Shown here: piece by piece, positions 39,653-57,776 of the stretch | Position numbering within the stretch: position 1 is the first letter of the stretch | Layout: each line of letters starts with the position of its first letter | Assembly (NCBI RefSeq): GCF_028463845.1 | Contig: NZ_CP116805.1 | Span: 434,001 to 498,000 of the forward strand | Source: Gimibacter soli | Lineage (GTDB): Bacteria > Pseudomonadota > Alphaproteobacteria > Sphingomonadales > Kordiimonadaceae | Direction: 5' to 3' | Length of the DNA stretch: 64,000 bases | Position numbers and translations under genes: made by a program | The notes under the pieces: model-generated | The model's input: only the letters and a program-made list of their open reading frames with translations | Database searches by the model: none | Told to the model about the DNA's origin: nothing

Positions 39653-40564
39653 TTAAATCCCGCAAACACCAAGGCGGCCACACAGGTCATCGAGCTGATC
39701 GAGCGTTTCATAGCGGATGGTGACGACACCACCTTCACCGTCCGCGCCGCCGCCATGCTCGATCGTCACCTTCATGCCGGTTGCGGCTGAAAGATCCTTT
39801 TCAAGCGCCACGGTATCGGCGTCCTTCGCCTTGCCGGTACCGGAGAGGCCACGGGCCTTGGGTGCCGCCGGGCGGCCCTTGGCCTCGTTTGCCAGCACTT
39901 CAGTCTGGCGGACCGACAGGCCTTCCTTGACGATGCGTTTGGCAATCTCTTCAGCGTCCGCTGCACCAATCAGGGCGCGGGCATGGCCCATGGAGATAGC
40001 ACCGGCATTGACCATATCCTGGACGCTCGTGGGCAGCAGCAGCAGGCGCATCAGGTTCGCCACATGACTACGGCTTTTGCCGACGATTTCCGCCGCGGTT
40101 TCCTGCGTATGGCCAAACTCGTCAATGAGCCGCTTGTAGGCGGTTGCTTCCTCAATGGCACTCAGGTCCTGCCGCTGGACGTTTTCAACGATGGCGATTT
40201 CGAGCACTTCGGAATCCGAAAGCTCCCGCACCACCACCGGCACTTCATGGATGCCGGCCTTCTGGGCTGCCCGCCAGCGCCTCTCGCCCGCCACGATCTG
40301 GAACCGGTCGCCACCCATCGGCCGCACAAGAATCGGCTGCAGGACACCCTTTTCCTTAATCGAGGCCGTCAGTTCGGCAATCGCTGCATCGTCGAACCGG
40401 TTGCGCGGCTGGGCGTTGTTGCGCTCCAGGAAAGCAATCGGCAGCACGCGACGCGAGGCATCGCCAATCGCGGCCTGGGCTGCCACCACCTGCGGGCGGT
40501 CGTCAGCGAGAAGAGCGGAAAGGCCTTTCCCGAGGCCTTTTTTGGGCTTGGCACCAAGTTGCAT
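39653..40564 (-). CDS. parB: Chromosome-partitioning protein ParB
   Basis: The 303-residue protein binds parS and spreads as a CTP-dependent clamp. It has the N-terminal LGKGLSALLAD, the CTPase motifs GVLQPILVRP and GERRWRAAQKAG, the ENVQRQDLSAIEEA segment, and a helix-turn-helix TQETAAEIVGKSRSHVANLMRLL. A Lys/Ala-rich linker leads to the C-terminal dimer domain. It lies 34 bases after parA in the mnmG-rsmG-parA-parB operon. Four parS-like sites lie 1.2-5.8 kb upstream of its start. Confidence 0.98.
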   Translation of the reverse strand: MQLGAKPKKGLGKGLSALLADDRPQVVAAQAAIGDASRRVLPIAFLERNNAQPRNRFDDAAIAELTASIKEKGVLQPILVRPMGGDRFQIVAGERRWRAAQKAGIHEVPVVVRELSDSEVLEIAIVENVQRQDLSAIEEATAYKRLIDEFGHTQETAAEIVGKSRSHVANLMRLLLLPTSVQDMVNAGAISMGHARALIGAADAEEIAKRIVKEGLSVRQTEVLANEAKGRPAAPKARGLSGTGKAKDADTVALEKDLSAATGMKVTIEHGGGADGEGGVVTIRYETLDQLDDLCGRLGVCGI

Positions 40565-40598
40565 TGATAGTCCTAACTTCTTGTTTTTATTCTATACT

Positions 40599-41396
40599 TC
40601 AGGCCGCAAGCGCGCCGTCACGGGTGAGAAGCTCGCGCGCCAGGCTGATATAGGCCTGACTGCCCGGGCAGCGGTGATCGTAAATGAGCGCCGGCATGCC
40701 ATGGCTCGGCGCTTCGGAAATCCGCACATTGCGCGGGATCATCGTCTCATAGACCTGCGAACCGAGATACTGGCGCACGTCGCTCGCCACCTGTTCCGAC
40801 AGGCGGTTGCGGCGGTCGAACATCGTCAGCACGATCCCGTTGATCGAAAGCTGCGGATTGAGGCTCGCCTGTACCTGATTGATCGTTTTGAGGAGAAGGC
40901 TGAGGCCTTCAAGCGCGAAAAACTCGCACTGCAGCGGCACCAGCACCTGATCGGCCGCCACGAAGGCGTTGATGGTGAGGAGCGACAGCGAGGGCGGGCA
41001 ATCGATCAGCACATAATCATAGGCCGACGACACTTCGGCCAGATCGAAGGCCTGACGCAGGCGGAAATTGCGCTGGGGCAGCTCGGCAAGCTCGAGATCA
41101 GCGCCCGACAGGTCAACCGTCGACGGGATCAGCTCGACAAGCGGAACCTCGGTTTCAATCACCGCGTCCTGCAGGTCTGCCGCGCCCATCACCACGTCAT
41201 AAGAGGTGATTTCGCGCGATGCCCGGTCGATACCAAGGCCGGTCGAGGCATTGCCCTGCGGATCGAGATCCACGATAAGCACATGCTTGTCCACCGCTGC
41301 CATCGCCGTCGCCAGATTGATTGCCGTCGTCGTTTTGCCGACGCCACCCTTCTGATTCGCCACTGCGATGATGCGGCCCTTGCCGGATTGTGTCAT
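40599..41396 (-). CDS. parA: Chromosome-partitioning ATPase ParA
   Basis: The 265-residue Walker-type ATPase has the deviant Walker A NQKGGVGKTTTAINLA near residue 14, VLIVDLDPQGNASTGLG near 39, and DYVLIDCPPSLSLLT near 125. It lacks the N-terminal helix-turn-helix domain of plasmid ParA, so it is the chromosomal Soj type. With ParB it moves replicated origins towards the cell poles. It is in the mnmG-rsmG-parA-parB operon. Confidence 0.98.
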   Translation of the reverse strand: MTQSGKGRIIAVANQKGGVGKTTTAINLATAMAAVDKHVLIVDLDPQGNASTGLGIDRASREITSYDVVMGAADLQDAVIETEVPLVELIPSTVDLSGADLELAELPQRNFRLRQAFDLAEVSSAYDYVLIDCPPSLSLLTINAFVAADQVLVPLQCEFFALEGLSLLLKTINQVQASLNPQLSINGIVLTMFDRRNRLSEQVASDVRQYLGSQVYETMIPRNVRISEAPSHGMPALIYDHRCPGSQAYISLARELLTRDGALAA

Positions 41397-41457
41397 GTCC
41401 GCCCCCCTTCAGGCTGATGCCGGATGGACTAATCGTCTGATTTTATTGGATTCCGCC

Positions 41458-42090
41458 TCAGGAAAAGCGGGGCTGAACTGCAGTGAGCCGCAAGATCACG
41501 CCCTTGTCGTCGCTCAGGCTTTGGAACCGGTCAACATCCATCTTCCACGCCTTCATGGCCTCGGTCAATTCGTCTTCCGCCCCTTCACCCTTCAATAGCC
41601 AGAATTCGGTATTCGGGCCGATGAAAGGCCTCCCCCAATCAAGGAGCTGACCCACCTTGGCACAGGCGCGCGACGTGATGAAATCGACAGGGAAAGTTTC
41701 AAGCGCTTCGATTCGCTCATTATGAATCGTGGCAAGGGCCGATGTTTCACGTGAAACCTGCCCCATGAAACTGCACTTCTTGCCGTTGCTTTCCACCATA
41801 TGCGCGTGGCCGAGCCCCATAACGGAAAGCACAAGGCCGGGGAAACCCGCCCCCGACCCGATATCGAGGAAGGTGAAATCGCCCTCCCCCTTCGCCTTGC
41901 GGATCAGGGGATAAAGCTGCGCAGAATCAAGGAAATGGCGGCGCCACAGATCGGGGATCGTGGTATCGGACACCAGATTCTTGGCCTTCTGCCACTTCAC
42001 GAGAAGGGCGGCATAGGCTTCGAGCTTCGCAAGTGTTTCACGTGGAACAGCGAGATCCGCGGCAAGGCGTTCGGCAGTATAGGCAGCCAT
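41458..42090 (-). CDS. rsmG: 16S rRNA (guanine-527-N7)-methyltransferase RsmG (GidB)
   Basis: The 210-residue SAM-dependent enzyme methylates G527. Visible features: KWQKAKNLVSDTTIPDLWRRHFLDSAQLYPLI near 33 and FLDIGSGAGFPGLVLSVMG near 73, the SAM-binding loop. Two parS-like palindromes are embedded in the coding sequence and encode the peptides VPRET and VSRET. The gene starts three bases after the mnmG stop. Confidence 0.97.
   Translation of the reverse strand: MAAYTAERLAADLAVPRETLAKLEAYAALLVKWQKAKNLVSDTTIPDLWRRHFLDSAQLYPLIRKAKGEGDFTFLDIGSGAGFPGLVLSVMGLGHAHMVESNGKKCSFMGQVSRETSALATIHNERIEALETFPVDFITSRACAKVGQLLDWGRPFIGPNTEFWLLKGEGAEDELTEAMKAWKMDVDRFQSLSDDKGVILRLTAVQPRFS
41743..41758. promoter_or_regulatory. 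parS-like site inside rsmG (proximal)
   Basis: TGTTTCACGTGAAACC matches the parS palindrome TGTTTCACGTGAAACA at 15 of 16 bases. It lies in the rsmG coding sequence and is the copy nearest parAB. Confidence 0.9.
42034..42049. promoter_or_regulatory. parS-like site inside rsmG (distal)
   Basis: TGTTTCACGTGGAACA is the reverse complement of TGTTCCACGTGAAACA, a standard parS sequence. It is 291 bases from the first copy in the same gene. Confidence 0.93.
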
Positions 42091-42093
42091 ATG

Positions 42094-43971
42094 TCAGGCT
42101 GCCCGCTTGCGCTTGATATGCCCAAGGATGAGCGTGAGCGCCGCCGGCGTCACACCGGCGATCCGGGCTGCGGCACCGAGCGTTGCCGGGCGGGCGGTGC
42201 GGAACTTCTCGCGCATCTCGTTTGAAAGCCCCGGAATGGCATCGAAATCCAGGTCCTCGGGGATCGTCAGCGCCTCATCCCTGCGGAAGGCATCGACGTC
42301 CGCCTGCTGCCGGTCCAGATAGCCGGCATACATGGCATCGATGCCGAGCTGCTCGGCAATCGCCGGATCGATGGCGCCAAGTTCCGCGGGCCAGATGGCT
42401 TTCAGCTGGGCATATTCAATGGTCGAGAAACCAAGAAGCGTTTCAGCCGACCGGCGCTGGCCATCCTGATTGAGGCTGAGGCCATGTTTGCCGGCTTCGT
42501 TCGGCGTCAGCGACAGGCCCTGCAGGGTGGCGCGACCGGCCGCCAGCGCCGCCTTCTTCGCCGCGAACGCCTCGCGGCGCTCGCTGCCGATAAAGCCAAT
42601 GCGGTCTCCGATATCGGTCAGGCGCTGGTCCGCATTATCGGCCCTAAGCGTCAGGCGATATTCCGCCCGGCTCGTGAACATGCGGTAAGGCTCCCGCGTG
42701 CCCTGTGTAATCAGGTCATCGAGCATCACACCGATATAGGCGTCCGCACGATCAAGGATGAAAGGCGTCTCGCTGCCACCAGCCGCAAGCGCCGCATTGG
42801 CGCCAGCCATCAGGCCCTGCGCTGCTGCTTCCTCGTAGCCCGTGGTGCCATTGATCTGGCCGGCCAGATAAAGGCCGGTCACGCGGCGGGTCTCAAGCGT
42901 CGCTTTCAGTTCGCGCGGGTCGATGAAATCATATTCTATCGCATAGCCCGGCCGGATGATCGTCACCTTCTCAAGGCCGGGGATCGACCGGATGAGTGCA
43001 TCCTGCACCTCTTCCGGCAGGCTTGTCGAAATGCCGTTCGGATAAACGGTCGGGTCATCAAGGCCTTCGGGCTCCAGGAAAATCTGGTGGCTTTCCTTAT
43101 CCGAGAAACGCACGACCTTGTCCTCGATCGACGGGCAGTAGCGCGGGCCCCGACCTTCGATCTGGCCCGAATACATCGGCGCGCGGTGCAGGTTATCCTT
43201 GATCACCTGATGCGTCCGCTCGGTCGTCCGGGTGATGAAGCAGCTGATCTGCGGTGTGGTGATCTCGCGGGTCAGGAACGAGAAAGGCACCGGCGGATTA
43301 TCGCCCGGCTGTTCCTCGCAGACAGACCAATCGATGGTGCGGCCATCGAGGCGCGCGGGCGTGCCGGTCTTCAGGCGGCCGAGCTCGAACCCGAGGCTCA
43401 TGAGCGTATCGGAAAGGCCCAGTGCCGGCGCCTCGCCCACACGGCCCGCCGGAATCTTCTTTTCACCGATATGGATCAGGCCGCGCAGGAAAGTGCCTGT
43501 CGTCAGGATCACGGCACCGGCCCGGATCTCGGTGCCGTCACCCAGCACTACACCGCCAATGCGCGGCTTCTCGCCTGAGCGGTCGATGATCAGGTCCTCG
43601 ACTGCGCCGCCAAGGATCGACAGATTCGCATAGTCGCCGAGGATCGCCTGCATGGCTTCGCGGTAAAGCTTGCGATCGGATTGCGCCCGCGGACCCTGCA
43701 CCGCCGGACCCTTGCGACGATTAAGGAGGCGGAACTGGATGCCGGCGGCGTCCGCCACCTTGCCCATGACGCCATCAAGCGCATCGATCTCGCGGACCAG
43801 ATGACCCTTGCCGAGCCCGCCGATGGCCGGGTTGCACGACATCTCGCCAACCGTTTCCGGCTTGTGGGTGACAAGCAGGGTCTTCGCGCCAACACGGGCC
43901 GACGCTGCCGCAGCCTCCGCCCCGGCGTGGCCACCACCAATCACGATCACATCAAACACGGTCGCGCTCAT
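42094..43971 (-). CDS. mnmG: tRNA uridine-5-carboxymethylaminomethyl modification enzyme MnmG (GidA)
   Basis: The 625-residue FAD protein works with MnmE on the wobble uridine of several tRNAs. Hallmarks: [23 protein letters not shown] at the start, [22 protein letters not shown] near 47, [20 protein letters not shown] near 158, [13 protein letters not shown] near 270, and [20 protein letters not shown] near 370. I used ATG 43971. It has its own good promoter just downstream of the CphA-like gene, so mnmG-rsmG-parA-parB can be transcribed separately. Confidence 0.98.
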
Positions 43972-44056
43972 CCACAAACCTCACACATGGCAAAAGACAG
44001 GCCGCCCCGCGCCTTCGCGGAACCACCTGCCCAACCTGCTCTGAAACATGGCGGGG

Positions 44057-44085
44057 TCTATACTAGAGAAAGGCGTTTAAGTCAA
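44057..44085 (-). promoter_or_regulatory. Promoter of mnmG-rsmG-parA-parB
   Basis: On the minus strand TTGACT (44085-44080) and TATAGA (44062-44057) have a 17-base spacer, a strong sigma-70 match. It lies 86 bases before the mnmG start and about 27 bases downstream of a parS palindrome, close enough that bound ParB could affect it. Confidence 0.65.
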
Positions 44086-44111
44086 AGTTAAGCGGGCCGC
44101 TTACCGGAGCG

Positions 44112-44127
44112 TGTTTCACGTGAAACA
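44112..44127. promoter_or_regulatory. Perfect parS palindrome overlapping a stop codon
   Basis: TGTTTCACGTGAAACA is a perfect 16-base palindrome and an exact parS consensus. The TGA stop of the CphA-like gene lies inside it, and the mnmG promoter follows closely. Confidence 0.96.
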
Positions 44128-45969
44128 CAGTGCCTGCTGCAAACGGGCCATGGCACTTTTCTGCTTCCGACTGACAGCAACTCCATCGCCCCAGGCTTCT
44201 CCGCTGTCGTGCCAAGCGGAAATGTGCGCAAGCGGCCAGGGCACATCAAAATCAGCCGCGCTTTCAACAAGAATAACGAGGGCCTCAACAGACCGGTCGA
44301 GCAAGGCTGCTTCGATACGTGCGGCAAGACCGGTGACCTTCATCGGAACAGGCTCAGGCTCGTCGTCCGTGCCTTTCCGCAGAAGCGTCTGGCTTGCACT
44401 GACCATCATGCAGTTCGCGTGACCTGCATCGACCAGTGTTTGTTGCCTCGTCCGCACAAGCGCTGCAGACCTTGCCCCACCCGCGCCGAAAACGACCTCG
44501 ACCGGCATGGCGCCGGGCTGACACGCCAATCGGGCGAAGAAGTGCTGCAGATAGTGGCGGGAAATCGGGGCGAGGCCAACCACCGGCGCGAAATTCACTT
44601 CGTTCACCACAGCGCCAGATATGTGCCATGGAATGGATATGTCGTCAGTCATGATATCGATTCCGATCACCGAAAGGCGGAACAACGATTGTACCCGCCG
44701 TGCGAAATCGAGGTTTTCGGGATGGATGATGGGCGTCACATCCTCATCAAGGCCACCATCCGCCGTGCTTTCGATCTGCCGGAGCGGCGCACGCGTACCC
44801 TGCTGCGGCACATAGTCAAAACTCATCCCTGCCCGTTCAAGTGCCTGCGATGCCAGAGCATCGTGGGGCCAACGCGTATCCCGCTTCCACGGCGGCAGCT
44901 GTTCGTTCGTGGCATTGGCGCGCACCACCAGTTCGGCGATGGTGCTGGTGCCGTCGCCCACAACAGCCTTCGGGCCGCGCTTGACGGCATAAAGCAAGTG
45001 GCCGTCCACCATCACCAGCCGGTGGCAGACCCCCTTGAGCATCGGCTCCACCAGAATGCGTCCGGACGGCGAAAGCGCGAGCGCATCCTCCGCCGCAACA
45101 CGCACGGCATCAGATGACGCCAGATTGATCGCCACGCCTTCACCCCGTTCGCAATCAACCGGCTTCACCACAACCGGCCAGCCGGCGGACGCCGCGGCTT
45201 GCAGCGCCGCGTCAACCGAACGAACAACATTTCCCTTTATGGCCGGCAGCCCGGCGCGGCGCATCAGATCGGCGGTTTGTGCCTTGTCCCGTGCGAGCCG
45301 GGCCCCGAGGGCGGAATCGCCCCCAAGCGAAGGCGCATCTATCCACACAGACTGTGCCCCGAAGCCGAGCTGGAAGGTGCCTCCTGCCAAATAACGAAAA
45401 GGGATGCCCTTCCGCCACGCTTCCCTCAGCACCGGCACCGTTGTTGCCCTGCCCCCGGCAAGAGAGAGAAGGCCACCGTCTATCACCTCATGCTGCAGCC
45501 AGTCCTGCACGGCCGAAATGTCACGATCATCCTGCGGCGAGGAAAGCCGCTTCAGGCATTCCATCGCTTGTCCCAAGAGCCACACATTGAGGTTGCGCCC
45601 GTATTCGGCAAATGCCGGAACCGCTGTCGCAACACGGTATGCCGGCACATCCTGCTCGGTTGTTTTCACATCGAGCGAAAGGATATGCCCTCGATCAAAG
45701 GATGGAATGCGAGCTGCAAGAAGGATCTCCCGCCGAACAAAAAGGCATCGCTCGACCCAGCCTCTGGCCTGCGAATGCTGTTCACCCTCCTTGGATAAAG
45801 TCAGGTGAAAACCTTCGCCAAAACAACGCACAATCCGGCCATCAAGCGTTTCGGCCTCAAAGGCCGGAATGGCTGTCAGTTCGAGCCTGATCCGTTCATG
45901 ATCGAGCGGCCATACCGGCTGTGCGCGGCCACTGGTTTTAGCCTTTTCAACTCTGGTGTCGATATTCAT
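44116..45969 (-). CDS. Cyanophycin-synthetase-like ATP-grasp protein lacking the Mur-ligase domain
   Basis: The 617-residue product resembles the first two thirds of CphA. An N-terminal domain (residues 1-210) is followed by an ATP-grasp region with AGGTFQLGFGAQSVWI near 200, ARDKAQTADLMRRAGLPAIKGNVVRS near 230, WPVVVKPVDCERGEGVAINL near 268, ILVEPMLKGVCHRLVMVDG near 308, and VVNEVNFAPV near 475. The C-terminal Mur-ligase half of CphA is absent; about 120 unrelated residues follow. It should form an amide bond with ATP, substrate unknown. It sits nine bases after mnmE, between mnmE and mnmG. Its stop codon is within a parS site. Confidence 0.75.
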   Translation of the reverse strand: MNIDTRVEKAKTSGRAQPVWPLDHERIRLELTAIPAFEAETLDGRIVRCFGEGFHLTLSKEGEQHSQARGWVERCLFVRREILLAARIPSFDRGHILSLDVKTTEQDVPAYRVATAVPAFAEYGRNLNVWLLGQAMECLKRLSSPQDDRDISAVQDWLQHEVIDGGLLSLAGGRATTVPVLREAWRKGIPFRYLAGGTFQLGFGAQSVWIDAPSLGGDSALGARLARDKAQTADLMRRAGLPAIKGNVVRSVDAALQAAASAGWPVVVKPVDCERGEGVAINLASSDAVRVAAEDALALSPSGRILVEPMLKGVCHRLVMVDGHLLYAVKRGPKAVVGDGTSTIAELVVRANATNEQLPPWKRDTRWPHDALASQALERAGMSFDYVPQQGTRAPLRQIESTADGGLDEDVTPIIHPENLDFARRVQSLFRLSVIGIDIMTDDISIPWHISGAVVNEVNFAPVVGLAPISRHYLQHFFARLACQPGAMPVEVVFGAGGARSAALVRTRQQTLVDAGHANCMMVSASQTLLRKGTDDEPEPVPMKVTGLAARIEAALLDRSVEALVILVESAADFDVPWPLAHISAWHDSGEAWGDGVAVSRKQKSAMARLQQALCFT

Positions 45970-45978
45970 GCCGCTACA

Positions 45979-47337
45979 TCACTTGCCGATGCAGAAATCG
46001 GAGAAAATAACGTCCAGGAGGTCCTCGACGCCGACACGGCCGGTGATCCGGCCGAGCGCGCGCGCAGCCATGCGGACATCCTCGGCGGCGAGCACCGCAT
46101 CGAAACCCGCGTTCGTCTCGAACCGCACCAGATGCTCCACAGTCTCGGAAAGCGCCTGGGCGTGGCGGAGGCGCGTCAGGCTTGGTGCCTCACGCGGTGC
46201 CATCGCATCCATCACATGGTCGCCCAGCCGCGCGAACAGGTCATCGAGCCCATGCTCGGTTTTTGCCGAAACGGCGGCAAAACCGACAAGGTCCGCAGGC
46301 ACATCCTTTTGTTCCACGTGAAACATCGCTGTTCGGTCGGCCTGCGTGACCACAAGGAAGGCGCCTTCCCCAAGCCACTCGGTGACCCCTTTCGGGATTT
46401 GCGGCCAGTCGTCGGCGCGCACCAGCACGAGGCGCAAGTCAGCTTCCTCCGCCCGCGCCCGCGCCCGGCGGATGCCCTCGGCTTCAATCGCACCTGCCCC
46501 TTCGTCGCGTAGGCCCGCTGTATCGATCAGCCGCACCGGGTAGCCACCCAGATCAAGCTGCACTTCCAGCACGTCGCGTGTTGTGCCGGCTTCATCCGAA
46601 ACGATGGCTACGTCGGATTTCGCGAGTGCATTCATGAGGGTCGATTTGCCCGCGTTCGGCTCACCGAGGATCACGATCCGGTAGCCGTCCCTTAGCGCCC
46701 TGCCCCGGCGGCCATCCGCAAGGTGCGCTTCGATCGACTGGCGCAGGCGGGCGATTTCAGGCCGCACCGCGCCCGCTACCCCTTCGGGCAAATCCTCGTC
46801 GGGGAAATCAATGTCGGCTTCGAGATGCGCGAGGTGAGATACAAGCGCCGTGCGCCAGCCCTCGTAAAGTGTGCGCAGGGCGCCGTCCATCTGGCGGAGC
46901 GCGACTTCCCGCTGGGCTGCGGTTTGCGCGTGGATCAGGTCATTCAGGCCCTCGGCTTCGGTGAGGTCAAGCTTGCCATGCTCGAACGCACGGCGCGAAA
47001 ACTCGCCGGGTTCGGCCGGGCGCAGACCCTTCATGGCGCCCAGTGCTTCGATGACGCCGCCCACGACCGCGCGACCGCCATGGAGATGCAGTTCCACCAC
47101 ATCCTCGCCCGTAAAGCTCGCCGGGCCTTCGAAATAAAGGACAAGCGCTTCATCGAGCCGGGCAGCGGTTGCGGGGTCGGTCAATCGCCGGAGTGCGGCT
47201 TTGCGCGGCTCGGGGCGCGCCTTGCCGGAGGTCAGTGCCTCAAGGGCAGCACCAGCACGGGGGCCCGACAGGCGCACAACGGCAACGCCGGCGACACCGG
47301 CGCCGGAAGAAAGCGCAAAGATTGTATCGGTGGCCAA
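45979..47337 (-). CDS. mnmE: tRNA modification GTPase MnmE (TrmE)
   Basis: The 452-residue GTPase partners MnmG in wobble-uridine modification. Hallmarks: MATDTIFALSSGAGVAGVAVVRLSG at the start, FTGEDVVELHLHGGRAV near 74, AEPGEFSRRAFEHGKLDLTEAEGL near 108, the G1 loop LGEPNAGKSTLMNAL near 225, and the C-terminal DVIFSDFCIGK with the catalytic cysteine. The start is TTG 47337. A parS site within the G domain encodes MFHVEQ. Transcription probably begins with the small DUF6489 gene. Confidence 0.97.
   Translation of the reverse strand: MATDTIFALSSGAGVAGVAVVRLSGPRAGAALEALTSGKARPEPRKAALRRLTDPATAARLDEALVLYFEGPASFTGEDVVELHLHGGRAVVGGVIEALGAMKGLRPAEPGEFSRRAFEHGKLDLTEAEGLNDLIHAQTAAQREVALRQMDGALRTLYEGWRTALVSHLAHLEADIDFPDEDLPEGVAGAVRPEIARLRQSIEAHLADGRRGRALRDGYRIVILGEPNAGKSTLMNALAKSDVAIVSDEAGTTRDVLEVQLDLGGYPVRLIDTAGLRDEGAGAIEAEGIRRARARAEEADLRLVLVRADDWPQIPKGVTEWLGEGAFLVVTQADRTAMFHVEQKDVPADLVGFAAVSAKTEHGLDDLFARLGDHVMDAMAPREAPSLTRLRHAQALSETVEHLVRFETNAGFDAVLAAEDVRMAARALGRITGRVGVEDLLDVIFSDFCIGK
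46310..46325. promoter_or_regulatory. parS site inside mnmE
   Basis: TGTTCCACGTGAAACA is an exact parS sequence of the common C-variant. It is in the mnmE coding region and is the parS-like copy closest to the predicted origin. Confidence 0.95.
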
Positions 47338-50597: not shown

Positions 50598-51302
50598 TCA
50601 GGCCATCGTGTTGCGGTTGGCACCGCGGCGGCGGGCAAAGCCGATGCTGGCGCCGAAACCGAGGATCACCATGAGCCAGGTCGAGGGTTCGGGGATGCCG
50701 GCCACAAGACCGCCACCGGGAATGCTGGCAACCGGATCGATAAATTCCACATTCATCGAAAGGATACGGAAGGTGTCGTTCTGGCTGATCGCGCCGAACG
50801 CCAGCTGATCTGTTACCCAGCCACCATCGAAGGTGAAGGTCGACCGGTTGTGGTGCGAACCGCTGAGGCCGAACTCGCCCATCAGGGCATTGTCTTCACC
50901 GAACAGGCGGAAATCATCGGAATTGTCGGCGTTGCCGAACACGACGCTCACGATCCGCACGGCTTCGCTGAAATTGAAGACCAGCACATCATCGGTGCCG
51001 TTGCCATCAATCCAGCCATTGTCGTTCTTGCCAAGCGACACGCCAAGGCCGTCACCCGAGCGGGTCACCTGAGCATAGTCCCAGTAGCCACTGTGATGGT
51101 TCTGCTGAACCCATTCCCACGGGGTGATCGAGCCATTCTTGTACTGGCCGGCGGTAACCTTGAGGTTCACATCGCTCGACGAATAATCGTAGCTGTAGGC
51201 ACTGCCCGAGCCACTTGAGAAATCGAACGTAACCGCAGCGCTTGCCGGAACACTGGCAAGGGCAAGGGCCCCAACAACTGCATACGAAAACGCCTTCAAC
51301 AT
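50598..51302 (-). CDS. PEP-CTERM sorting-domain exported protein
   Basis: The 234-residue product has a signal peptide (AFSYAVVGALALASVPASA) and a Gly/Ser/Asp-rich mature region resembling a carbohydrate-binding or adhesin-like beta domain. The C-terminal tripartite signal is IPEPSTWLMVILGFGASIG followed by FARRR. PEP-CTERM proteins are processed by exosortase and are linked to exopolysaccharide-producing cells. The start at 51302 follows AGGGAGA. No exosortase gene is in the window. Confidence 0.9.
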   Translation of the reverse strand: MLKAFSYAVVGALALASVPASAAVTFDFSSGSGSAYSYDYSSSDVNLKVTAGQYKNGSITPWEWVQQNHHSGYWDYAQVTRSGDGLGVSLGKNDNGWIDGNGTDDVLVFNFSEAVRIVSVVFGNADNSDDFRLFGEDNALMGEFGLSGSHHNRSTFTFDGGWVTDQLAFGAISQNDTFRILSMNVEFIDPVASIPGGGLVAGIPEPSTWLMVILGFGASIGFARRRGANRNTMA

Positions 51303-51404
51303 CTTGTCTCTCCCTGAGGACATTGGTGTCCTGATTCGAGACAAGTCTCTCAAATGCCGATAAAATCATTGCTAAGGATTGGAGACAATTTTAGGCGAAT
51401 TGAA

Positions 51405-55438: not shown

Positions 55439-56467
55439 TTAGCGCCGGAATGTCTTGATGGTCTTGGCGAGCTCGGCCACATGCTCGGGGTTGGTTTGCG
55501 GCACGAAACCATGACCGAGGTTGAAGACATGCGCGCCGCCTGCAAGCCCTTCCAGGATGCGGAGCGTTTCAGCGACCATGCCGCCGCCGCCCGCAACCAC
55601 ATGCCAAGGGTCAAGATTGCCCTGCACCGGCACCATATTCTGGATATCCCGCCCGATTTTCAGCGATACGCCGGTGTCCAGCGACACGGCATTCACGCCG
55701 GTTTCGCGGACATATTTCTTGTAAAGGCTGCCGGCAAGGCGCGGGAAACCGATGATCGGCACTTCCTTGTGCTTGGCCCGGATACGCGACACGATGGCGC
55801 GGGTCGGCTCGATCACCCAATTGTCGAACGCGGGCTCCGGCAGTGCCGCCGACCAGCTGTCGAAAATCTGCACGGCATCGGCGCCGGCATCGATCTGCGC
55901 GATCAGATATTCACTGGTGGCTTCGACCAGCATATCGAGAAGACGGCCGAACAGGCCGGGCTTCGAATAACCCAGAAGCCGCGCGGCCCCATGGTCCTTG
56001 CTGCCTGCCCCTTCGACCATATAGGTCGCGACTGTCCACGGCGCCCCGGCAAACCCCAGAAGCGTTACCTCATCGGGCAGGTCCTTCCGGAGCCGCCTGA
56101 CTGTTTCGTATACGGCACCGACCTTTTCATGAAAGCCCGTCATGCCGATTTTGGAGAAGGTGGCCTCGTCATTGACCGGCGTGAGGCGAGGTCCATGGCC
56201 TGTCTCGAACCAAACCTGCTGACCCAATCCGTCGGGCACGACAAGAATGTCCGCAAACAGGATCGCACCGTCCATGCCATAGCGGCGGATCGGCTGCAGG
56301 GTCACTTCGGTTGCAAGGTCCGGGCTATAGCAGAAATCCATGAAGGATTTCGATTTGGCCCGCGTCTCCAGATATTCAGGGAGATACCGCCCTGCCTGAC
56401 GCATGAACCAGAAAGGTACACGGTCGCCCGGATTGTTCTTGAGCGTTTCAAGCAGGAGCCTGGTCAT
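55439..56467 (-). CDS. hemE: Uroporphyrinogen decarboxylase
   Basis: The 342-residue enzyme converts uroporphyrinogen III to coproporphyrinogen III. Hallmarks: VPFWFMRQAGRYLPEY near residue 18, GAILFADILVVPDGLG near 70, GFAGAPWTVATYMVEG near 138, and FNLGHGFVPQTNPEHV near the C-terminus. It is oriented away from the adjacent predicted origin, as in Caulobacter, where hemE flanks Cori. Confidence 0.98.
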   Translation of the reverse strand: MTRLLLETLKNNPGDRVPFWFMRQAGRYLPEYLETRAKSKSFMDFCYSPDLATEVTLQPIRRYGMDGAILFADILVVPDGLGQQVWFETGHGPRLTPVNDEATFSKIGMTGFHEKVGAVYETVRRLRKDLPDEVTLLGFAGAPWTVATYMVEGAGSKDHGAARLLGYSKPGLFGRLLDMLVEATSEYLIAQIDAGADAVQIFDSWSAALPEPAFDNWVIEPTRAIVSRIRAKHKEVPIIGFPRLAGSLYKKYVRETGVNAVSLDTGVSLKIGRDIQNMVPVQGNLDPWHVVAGGGGMVAETLRILEGLAGGAHVFNLGHGFVPQTNPEHVAELAKTIKTFRR

Positions 56468-56888
56468 GATGAAGGGACGCCTTTCAATGCGTGTCGAAAC
56501 TCGAAAACCGGGCGTACCCTATTCAATCTTCTTATATGAATCAAAAATATTGTTGTTGTAGTGGAACCCTGTGAATCCTGTGGATAAGCATTTTTCCACA
56601 TCTTTATGCACAGTTTTCCACAAGCAGTGCTGGCCGTGGAAAATCTGTGGAAAGATCTGCGGATAAACCGGCGTTTAGGCTGGAATCCGCCGCCCGATTA
56701 GGATGGGATTGCGTGGAAAACCTGATTTCCAGCCGGTTTCAACCACCTGTCATCCCGGGTTTTCCGGGCAGTGGATAGACAGCACAAGCTTGCATATAAA
56801 GCTGTCGCAAAATGTGGGAATCCGCCCTAGTCTGTTTCTTCACAGTCCGGCCAACAGGTTATCCACAGCTTATCCCAGCGAGTTATAC
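56468..56888. other. oriC: Putative chromosomal replication origin (oriC)
   Basis: This 421-base gap between hemE and the DUF299 gene, the position of Caulobacter Cori, holds no gene. Perfect DnaA boxes are TGTGGATAA (56579-56587) and TTATCCACA (56859-56867). Near matches are TTTTCCACA (56592-56600, 56614-56622), CGTGGAAAA (56635-56643, 56712-56720), TGTGGAAAG (56646-56654), TGCGGATAA (56658-56666) and TTATCCCAG (56870-56878). An AT-rich tract (about 56520-56560) beside the first boxes could be the unwinding element. Four GAATC sites are present, at 56538, 56573, 56683 and 56818. No TTAA-N7-TTAA CtrA box was seen. Confidence 0.88.
56682..56826. repeat. 10-bp direct repeat inside oriC
   Basis: GGAATCCGCC occurs at 56682-56691 and 56817-56826, 135 bases apart in the same orientation. 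Each copy contains a GANTC site, the target of the CcrM-type methylase in alphaproteobacteria. Confidence 0.7.
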
Positions 56889-57776
56889 ATGAACGATCTG
56901 ACCGACATGCCGACCGCGCCGTTCCAGGAAGGGGAAAACCCCGGCGAACGGATTTTCCACGTGCATCTGGTGTCGGATTCGACCGGTGAAACGCTTGACG
57001 CGACCGTCGGGGCAGCCCTTGTCCAGTTCGAAGGTGTCAGGGTCCAGAAGCATAGCTGGCCGCTTATCCGTTCTGCCATGCAAATGGAACGGCTGATGGA
57101 AGATATCCGCGAGGACCCGGGCCTTGTCATGTATACCCTCGTGAACCCGAAAATACGACAGGCGCTGGAGGAAGGTTGTCAGGCCGCAAATCTACCGGTG
57201 CTGTCGATCCTTGATCCTGTCATCAATCTTCTTGGCACCTATTTCGGGGTGCAGGCGTCGCACAGCGTCGGCAAGCAGCATATGATGGACGCCAACTATT
57301 TCCGCCGTATCGATGCCCTTCACTATACGATGGCGCATGATGACGGCCAGATGACTGAGGAATTGTTCGAGGCCGATATCGTGCTTGTCGGCGTGTCGCG
57401 GTCGTCGAAAACGCCTACGAGCATCTATCTCGCCAACAAGGGCTACAAGACGGCGAATGTGCCCTTCGTGCCCGTTGTGCCGATGCCCGAGGAACTGGAC
57501 CATCTGAAAGATACGTTCGTGATCGGCCTCACCACGAGCCCGGACCGGCTGGTGGCGATCCGTACCAACCGCTTGCGGTCGCTCCATAAGGATGACGATG
57601 GCTGCTATACGGACGAGGAGCATATCAAGACCGAAATCGCCGCCTGCCGCCGCTATTGCAGCGAACGGGGCTGGCCGGTCCTTGATGTCACCCGCCGCTC
57701 GATCGAGGAATCGGCGGCTGCCATCATCCACAAATATCACGCCTGGCTGGAGGCCCGCCGCGAGGGCAGCGCATGA
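56889..57776 (+). CDS. DUF299 pyruvate,phosphate dikinase regulatory kinase/phosphorylase
   Basis: The 295-residue protein has HLVSDSTGETLDATVGAALVQF near residue 21, HSVGKQHMMDANYFRRIDALHYTMAHDDGQ near 126, the P-loop VGVSRSSKTPTSIYLANKGYKTANVP near 172, and RSIEESAAAIIHKY near the end. This is the DUF299/PPSR family, which phosphorylates and dephosphorylates PPDK or PEP synthase. The open frame extends upstream to 56703 through the origin, but ATG 56889 is the sensible start. It is the Caulobacter RP001-position gene flanking the origin. Confidence 0.95.
   Translation: MNDLTDMPTAPFQEGENPGERIFHVHLVSDSTGETLDATVGAALVQFEGVRVQKHSWPLIRSAMQMERLMEDIREDPGLVMYTLVNPKIRQALEEGCQAANLPVLSILDPVINLLGTYFGVQASHSVGKQHMMDANYFRRIDALHYTMAHDDGQMTEELFEADIVLVGVSRSSKTPTSIYLANKGYKTANVPFVPVVPMPEELDHLKDTFVIGLTTSPDRLVAIRTNRLRSLHKDDDGCYTDEEHIKTEIAACRRYCSERGWPVLDVTRRSIEESAAAIIHKYHAWLEARREGSA

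Follow-up and report, generated by a model that had tools for sequence, protein, structure and literature searches.

A candidate variant DnaA-trio element in the putative hemE-locus chromosome origin of a Kordiimonadaceae bacterium

The 64-kb stretch of Gimibacter soli DNA analysed here (the window) covers genome bases 434,001-498,000 of a single-contig chromosome of 3,591,784 bases. Within it, a 421-bp interval at 56468-56888 (positions are those of the window unless given as genome positions) separates the divergent genes hemE and DUF299. A preliminary description made from the letters of the window had put forward this interval as a replication origin (oriC). Its borders were placed correctly, since the hemE open reading frame (ORF) ends at 56467 and the DUF299 ORF begins at 56889. 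The flanking genes also proved to be those named, with PF01208 and PF03618 domains, and 3' of the DUF299 gene lie maf, aroE, coaE and a dnaQ-like exonuclease gene (PF02545, PF08501, PF01121, PF00929). This is like Caulobacter crescentus Cori, which has hemE on one side and a DUF299/RP001-type gene, maf, aroE, coaE and dnaQ on the other, and which likewise carries a DnaA-box cluster. The closest named relative, Pseudokordiimonas caeni (Kordiimonadales, Kordiimonadaceae), showed 99% identity across the DUF299 protein. The interval holds a cluster of DnaA boxes, an AT-rich tract and, between that tract and a tandem pair of boxes on the hemE side, a run of five triplets that is the main subject of this report.

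55439-56467, minus strand: hemE, uroporphyrinogen decarboxylase, left flank (PF01208, E 1.1e-108)
56468-56888, unstranded: putative oriC interval between the two divergent genes (DnaA-box cluster, skew flip, conserved layout)
56520-56549, unstranded: AT-rich tract adjoining the triplets, predicted duplex unwinding element (80% AT over 40 bp from 56520)
56550-56564, plus strand: five triplets, proposed variant DnaA-trios, 5'-TTG TTG TTG TAG TGG-3' (score 10/10)
56570-56578, minus strand: weaker second DnaA box GGATTCACA, abutting the exact box (3 mismatches, counted by eye; conserved CTGTGAA block of a 16-row alignment)
56579-56587, minus strand: exact DnaA box TTATCCACA, proposed anchor of the unwinding element (0 mismatches)
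56592-56600, plus strand: DnaA box TTTTCCACA (1 mismatch)
56604-56612, plus strand: DnaA box TTATGCACA (1 mismatch)
56614-56622, plus strand: DnaA box TTTTCCACA (1 mismatch)
56635-56643, minus strand: weak DnaA box TTTTCCACG (2 mismatches)
56646-56654, minus strand: weak DnaA box CTTTCCACA (2 mismatches)
56658-56666, minus strand: DnaA box TTATCCGCA (1 mismatch)
56712-56720, minus strand: weak DnaA box TTTTCCACG (2 mismatches)
56770-56778, minus strand: weak DnaA box CTATCCACT (2 mismatches)
56836-56844, plus strand: weak DnaA box TTCTTCACA (2 mismatches)
56859-56867, plus strand: exact DnaA box TTATCCACA, DUF299 end (0 mismatches)
56889-57776, plus strand: DUF299 / Kinase-PPPase gene, right flank (PF03618, E 3.3e-92)

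The interval contained 2 exact TTATCCACA boxes, 5 matches to TTWTNCACA, 6 sites with at most one mismatch and 11 with at most two, and none of 1000 dinucleotide shuffles of the 421 bp equalled any of these four counts. The two perfect boxes and at least seven near matches of the preliminary description were therefore an accurate minimum, with 2 exact and 9 near matches counted. Among 1255 other 421-bp windows taken at 50-bp steps across the 64 kb, the maximum was 1 site with at most one mismatch. TTWTNCACA occurred 87 times in the whole genome; five of these fell inside 289 bp of the interval, while every other 1-kb stretch held at most two (list read by eye). Such a DnaA-box cluster is found nowhere else in the genome. 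The densest loose group outside it, six TTWTNCACA in about 9.6 kb at genome positions 1101579-1111220 (list read by eye), is possibly a DnaA-binding region. An exact box on the same strand in the DUF299-side half was kept in all 16 Kordiimonadaceae rows of the alignment. The AT content reached its maximum, 0.80, over the 40 bp starting at 56520, where an AT-rich tract (56520-56560) had been reported.

GC skew was measured in twenty 12-kb samples and seven further stretches. The twenty samples were negative at 1, 180 and 360 kb, positive from 540 kb to 2.16 Mb, and negative again from 2.34 to 3.42 Mb; with all sampled stretches, the skew was negative at 1-372 kb, positive from 540 kb to 2.215 Mb and negative from 2.23 to 3.43 Mb, the seven further stretches bracketing the second flip at about 2.215-2.23 Mb. 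Over the contiguous 360-552 kb (192 kb), the cumulative skew reached its minimum at genome position 487,466, which is 3.0 kb away from the interval. The second flip lies about half a chromosome from the interval, but the exact opposite point would be 2.287 Mb, so that the arms differ somewhat in length. Counts of GGGNAGGG broadly tracked the skew arms, with the 540-kb sample (1 vs 2) running opposite. Skew had been named beforehand as a check on the origin proposal, and in this sampled form it gave a sign change at the interval and none beside dnaA. An origin beside dnaA was rejected: the gene is at 246 kb, 244 kb from the interval and inside the negative arm, it contains one TTWTNCACA, and no skew flip accompanies it.

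The parAB genes and four of the five genomic parS-like sites (0-1 mismatch) lie 9-17 kb from the interval. The divergent hemE-DUF299 layout was present in 73 of 80 class families, 29 of 30 order loci and 38 of 42 named loci. The class families were represented by one genome each, drawn from genomes having a DUF299 gene; the class search covered 240 genomes, 154 of them with that gene, and the layout counts are silent on the other 86. The box cluster, the sampled skew flip, the nearby parABS and the conserved layout all support the proposed oriC, and we consider 56468-56888 very probably the chromosomal origin of this bacterium, at a locus widely kept in Alphaproteobacteria; it is established as far as sequence can do so. 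Taken simply as an origin, it is unremarkable: the locus is well known, and the interval adds a new CtrA-free member to it. A literature search joining Kordiimonas with 'replication origin' found no report (subscription papers were not covered).

The triplet element had escaped the preliminary description and matters more than the origin call itself. On the minus strand the triplets read CCA CTA CAA CAA CAA, and the whole element TTATCCACA-GGATTCACA-GGGTT-CCA CTA CAA CAA CAA-TATTTTTGATTC; the recurrent triplets read 5'-TTGTTGTTGTAGTGG-3' on the trio strand and are placed like DnaA-trios. The most conserved block of the 16-row Kordiimonadaceae alignment was on the hemE side, where CTGTGAA...TGTGGATAA was followed by bases conserved at 3-nt steps and then by AT-rich DNA. 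The 30 nt downstream of the triplets averaged 86% AT in 14 Kordiimonadaceae rows.

To count the element, we looked for runs of five triplets with C in the first and A in the third place, leaving the middle base free, at a score of at least 8/10, on the minus strand, 40-150 nt from hemE and without using DnaA boxes. This register search superseded scans anchored on TTCACAGG, in which many rows outside Kordiimonadaceae were mis-anchored (good anchor in 28/64). Loci with no hemE in the stretch (7 of 80 in the class sample, 4 of 42 among the named loci and 1 of 30 in the order sample) or with an intergenic region above 1000 nt (L158, L168) were left out. Near-copies were also left out, namely L081 (of L082), L094 (of L005), L101 (of L006) and L002 (of the own genome) from the triplet counts, and L081, L094 and L101 from the CtrA-site counts and the first trio scan. 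The group labels 'Kordiimonadaceae' for L003, 'Sneathiella-like' for L007-L019 and L041, and 'Hyphomonadaceae-type' for L033-L040 were assigned in this analysis on the basis of record titles and similarity, and some class families may overlap with these groups.

The triplets were found in 14 of 15 Kordiimonadaceae (the single miss was L084), 14 of 14 Sneathiella-like loci, 43 of 71 class families and none of 8 Hyphomonadaceae-type loci. Shuffles gave expectations of 0.5, 0.6, 3.6 and 0.4 in the same order, and the means of dinucleotide shuffles agreed (0.6, 0.6, 3.1 and 0.2). As controls, no locus of any group scored on the plus strand of the same stretch, and near DUF299 that strand gave 0, 0, 0 and, for the Hyphomonadaceae-type loci, 1. 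The own element scored 10/10, a value equalled by none of 2000 dinucleotide shuffles of its stretch. At period 3 the counts were 14, 14 and 43 in Kordiimonadaceae, Sneathiella-like loci and families; periods 2, 4 and 5 gave 0 in the first two groups and 1 in the families (period 5), and period 6, a multiple of 3, gave 1, 0 and 8. A box with at most two mismatches lay 9-34 nt upstream of the triplets in 13 of 14 Kordiimonadaceae and 24 of 43 families, as compared with 35% and 19% of random places in the same loci. An earlier scan for CWA after such a box had found at least three of five triplets in 18 of 71 families (0.2 expected), with all matches on the minus strand (rows read by eye). These triplets are likely to be unwinding repeats read by the AAA+ domain of DnaA, and the element probably carries the unwinding function of the origin.

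The arrangement is like the basal unwinding system (BUS) of Bacillus subtilis (PMC8287927), with tandem boxes, a short spacer, directional triplets and then AT-rich DNA. A BUS has one box with at most 2 mismatches and a partner with at most 4, and here the two have 0 and 3. Its spacer is at most 16 nt; here it is 14 nt (56565-56578), or 17 nt with the first CCA triplet left out. A middle adenine is conserved in published trios, and the published search program asks for it in at least three consecutive triplets read 3' to 5' (PMC8287927); the own run, 5'-TTG-TTG-TTG-TAG-TGG-3', carries it in one of five. Since the defining run of middle adenines was looked for here and not found, we do not class the element as a BUS member, though it most likely works like one.

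The middle base departed from the published trios in the relatives as well. On the trio strand of the 43 families, it was T in 79, A in 76, G in 53 and C in 7 of 215 triplets. Middle C was depleted to 3.3% from 20.7% in the flanks, and shuffles that reached the score by chance showed no such depletion (20.7%). The Fisher p value of 3e-13 overstates this depletion because the rows are related. In B. subtilis, middle A and C work but G and T fail, because Asn187 needs an amino group (PMC10721633). What is seen here comes close to the reverse of the B. subtilis rule.

The DnaA protein differs at the corresponding residue. Phe207 of the own DnaA aligns with Asn187 of B. subtilis DnaA (8btg). Among the other trio-capture residues, E183, I190 and E228 are kept, and besides N187 to F the changes are I193 to L, N196 to K and R202 to K. 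In 108 alphaproteobacterial DnaA proteins (78 of the 80 class genomes, 29 of 30 named genomes and the own), the position aligned to 187 was Tyr in 77, Phe in 14, Asn in 9, Ser in 3, Asp in 2, and Leu, His and Arg in 1 each. Where the origin was readable, triplets were present in 58 of 83 genomes with an aromatic residue vs 2 of 14 with a non-aromatic one (Fisher p 1.3e-4); the class families alone gave 42 of 64 vs 1 of 5 (p 0.063). The published pattern lay within 230 nt of hemE in 5 of 8 Asn genomes and 28 of 83 aromatic genomes. A quick DnaA tree required 3 changes for Asn, with 57 of 105 branches open (weakly resolved) and a long-branch warning. As 6 of the 14 non-aromatic genomes form one clade, the co-variation between triplets and DnaA residue is suggestive only. 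We tentatively propose that an aromatic residue in place of Asn187 could relax the need for a middle adenine. In L028 and L032, the best DnaA match was very divergent (29% and 27% identity) and lacked the usual initiator-specific motif, and their hemE-DUF299 intervals had no DnaA box at one mismatch or fewer.

Taken jointly, these data led us to a reading to which we give a probability of roughly 40%. Many alphaproteobacterial hemE-locus origins may open by way of a variant DnaA-trio code, written 5'-TDG-3' on the trio strand (D = A, T, G); read 3' to 5', it would keep the first G and third T and have T, A or G but hardly ever C in the middle. Tyr or Phe in the initiator-specific motif would replace the Asn that asks for an amino-bearing middle base, so that protein and DNA code changed together. 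The Asn-bearing lineages (Aquidulcibacter/Hyphomonadaceae group) would use a different element and would have taken on CtrA control. The anatomy, its conservation, the sampled skew and the parABS neighborhood were observed directly, and the putative variant unwinding element would work on this anatomy as follows. DnaA-ATP would bind the tandem pair at 56570-56587 and spread from it along the plus strand through the triplets at 56550-56564, read 3'-GGT GAT GTT GTT GTT-5' away from the box, and the AT-rich tract would open toward hemE. The box array at 56592-56666 and the strong box at 56859 would nucleate and tune the filament, with the remaining boxes setting the threshold.

The authors of the BUS survey suspect deviant trios that lack the middle adenine (PMC8287927). 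The interval and its relatives offer a concrete candidate for these, accompanied by a change in the DnaA residue that reads the middle base, so that the reading of different single-strand motifs by different DnaA proteins can be put to the test. If the variant code is real, origin-finding programs that demand a middle adenine may misplace the unwinding site in many Alphaproteobacteria.

Several observations weigh against the variant code. At our cut-off, the triplets were absent from 28 of 71 families and from all 8 Hyphomonadaceae-type loci. The single middle A among the five own triplets falls short of the published three in a row, a pattern which every one of the 15 Kordiimonadaceae intervals has at some place (6.8 expected), as do 43 of 71 families (14.8 expected). 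Triplets also occurred despite a non-aromatic residue in 2 of 14 genomes (L156 with Asn, score 9; L006 with Leu, score 10), and 25 of 83 aromatic genomes were without them. As for the origin call, the skew behind it was read from samples and does not cover the whole chromosome.

A more conventional explanation is that the element is an ordinary DnaA-trio set in which middle T or G is tolerated degeneracy with the DnaA reading unchanged, or that other parts of the interval hold middle-A trios. The published trio logo is itself termed degenerate (PMC8287927), 9 of 14 Kordiimonadaceae rows had a CTA-like second triplet counted from the box, with T in the middle on the C-N-A strand, and the excess of the published pattern in the Kordiimonadaceae intervals fits this explanation; in the own interval that pattern occurred only beside the weak boxes at 56635 and 56712. 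On the hemE side, however, the pattern was rare, with 3 of 15 Kordiimonadaceae, 3 of 14 Sneathiella-like loci and 8 of 71 families. The tolerated bases are also the wrong ones by the B. subtilis rule, under which C works and G and T do not (PMC10721633), as middle C is the depleted base here. We regard ordinary trios as possible, at somewhat under even odds. Literature searches joining DnaA-trios with Alphaproteobacteria, or with Caulobacter and Cori, each brought up a single review from 2016, and the top-ranked matches listed in further searches contained nothing on trios in Alphaproteobacteria (subscription papers were not covered).

Alternatively, the C-N-A triplets could belong to the promoter or leader of hemE, or to a reading frame upstream of it. 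They lie on the hemE coding strand 49-149 nt upstream of its start in the 43 families, within a search limited to 40-150 nt, and an ORF with a start codon can cover the element in 14 of 14 Kordiimonadaceae and 37 of 43 families, as compared with 74% and 79% at random places, so that this coverage does not speak against a reading frame. The frame relative to hemE varied (19/13/11 of 43), as did the distance, and the varying frame is our main reason to doubt a reading frame as the cause of the 3-nt periodicity. In addition, DnaA boxes stand ahead of the triplets more often than ahead of random places, and AT-rich DNA comes after the triplets. We consider a promoter, leader or reading-frame origin of the triplets unlikely.

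Unwinding-element motifs of other bacteria resemble the triplets in part. The eTrio of Thermotoga maritima and the TTGT/TTATT of Escherichia coli are single-strand motifs bound by DnaA (PMC10316083), and the own 5'-TTGTTGTTGTAG includes both TTGT and TAG. In contrast, the T. maritima origin uses TAG repeats (PMC10316083), and its DnaA (2z4r), like that of B. subtilis and unlike the own protein with Phe, has Asn at the position aligned to 187. The E. coli strand is recruited through DNA bent by integration host factor (IHF; PMC10316083), and the own interval has no exact IHF consensus. Only 1-mismatch matches were found there. The patterns searched for were the IHF consensus WATCAAN4TTR and a published form, WATCAN5WTR (PMC1914354).

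The preliminary description had also found no CtrA sites of the Cori type (TTAA-N7-TTAA) and suggested that the control logic may differ from that of Caulobacter. The absence is real: the interval has no TTAA, no such site at 0 or 1 mismatch, and three at 2 mismatches. The suggestion held too, with the qualification that lacking CtrA sites is the common state among relatives and not unusual. Among the 71 sampled families with the hemE-DUF299 layout, 61 had no full site, and the full site was present in 10 of 71 families, 0 of 15 Kordiimonadaceae and 0 of 14 Sneathiella-like loci, as compared with 6 of 8 Hyphomonadaceae/Aquidulcibacter-type loci. The 71 families held 11 full sites vs an expectation of 1.6 in shuffles, an excess suggesting that the CtrA site is in use in some lineages. 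A Wolbachia/Rickettsiales study, which gives hemE as a boundary gene of the Wolbachia origin, reports between zero and seven of these sites per origin (PMC1914354).

The genome itself encodes GcrA and a CtrA ortholog, with 77% identity to the Caulobacter protein, and full palindromic CtrA sites number 33 genome-wide vs 23 for the reversed pattern. It is conceivable that CtrA, as in Caulobacter, still controls the origin by way of half sites or degenerate sites, for which the three 2-mismatch sites would be candidates. We consider this very unlikely, given that the interval lacks TTAA and any closer match and that no Kordiimonadaceae locus has a full site. Degenerate CtrA control was rejected, its matches appearing only at 2 mismatches, and we propose that CtrA does not act at the interval through its usual site. 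The interval has no CtrA sites and is not classed as a CtrA-controlled origin of the Cori type. Further differences from Cori as described are the triplet element and boxes that match the consensus, Cori being reported with weaker G- and W-boxes (PMC4468827).

That the interval is merely a DnaA-regulated divergent promoter region of hemE and DUF299, with replication starting elsewhere, for example at dnaA, is highly improbable, since, although it is a divergent intergenic region with only 21 bp between its exact box at 56859-56867 and the start of DUF299, and promoters also carry DnaA boxes (PMC4468827), the sampled skew flips at the interval, parABS is near it, and dnaA lies at 246 kb within the negative arm with one TTWTNCACA in the gene.

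In the Hyphomonadaceae-type loci (L033-L040), the published middle-A pattern occurred near hemE in 7 of 8, although the box next to it, CTATCCACC, is weak. A pattern of C and A at period 4 also scored in 7 of 8, for which we offer no explanation. The last 90 nt before hemE contained weak DnaA boxes, CtrA sites and a CTACTACTG..TACTGATT run. Seven DnaA proteins of this type (L259-L265) had Gln where the own DnaA has Glu203 and Asn where it has Phe207.

The segregation genes and sites of the window were as follows.

39653-40564, minus strand: parB (PF02195/PF17762)
40599-41396, minus strand: parA (PF13614)
41743-46325, unstranded: four parS sites of 16 bp each, starting at 41743, 42034, 44112 and 46310 (0-1 mismatch to the consensus)

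The four sites are enclosed in a cluster of parB, parA, gidB, gidA and mnmE at 39653-47337, and the fifth parS-like site is distant, at genome position 129059. At 44077-44091, some 20 bp away from the perfect parS site (44112), there is a full TTAA-N7-TTAA palindrome. Elsewhere in the genome, at 716030-718124 (L119-L121), three TTAAC-N5-GTTAA palindromes within 2.1 kb adjoin a tandem pair of genes whose products look secreted and have a PEP-type C-terminus, and a protein similar to this pair is encoded in the window at 50598-51353. The hemE-DUF299 interval of L105 has two TTAATACAAAATTAA repeats, and the other order loci examined were without full CtrA-like sites. Finally, the origin intervals of L081 and L082 carry 11 GANTC sites in 421 bp, as compared with 0-4 in the other Kordiimonadaceae loci.
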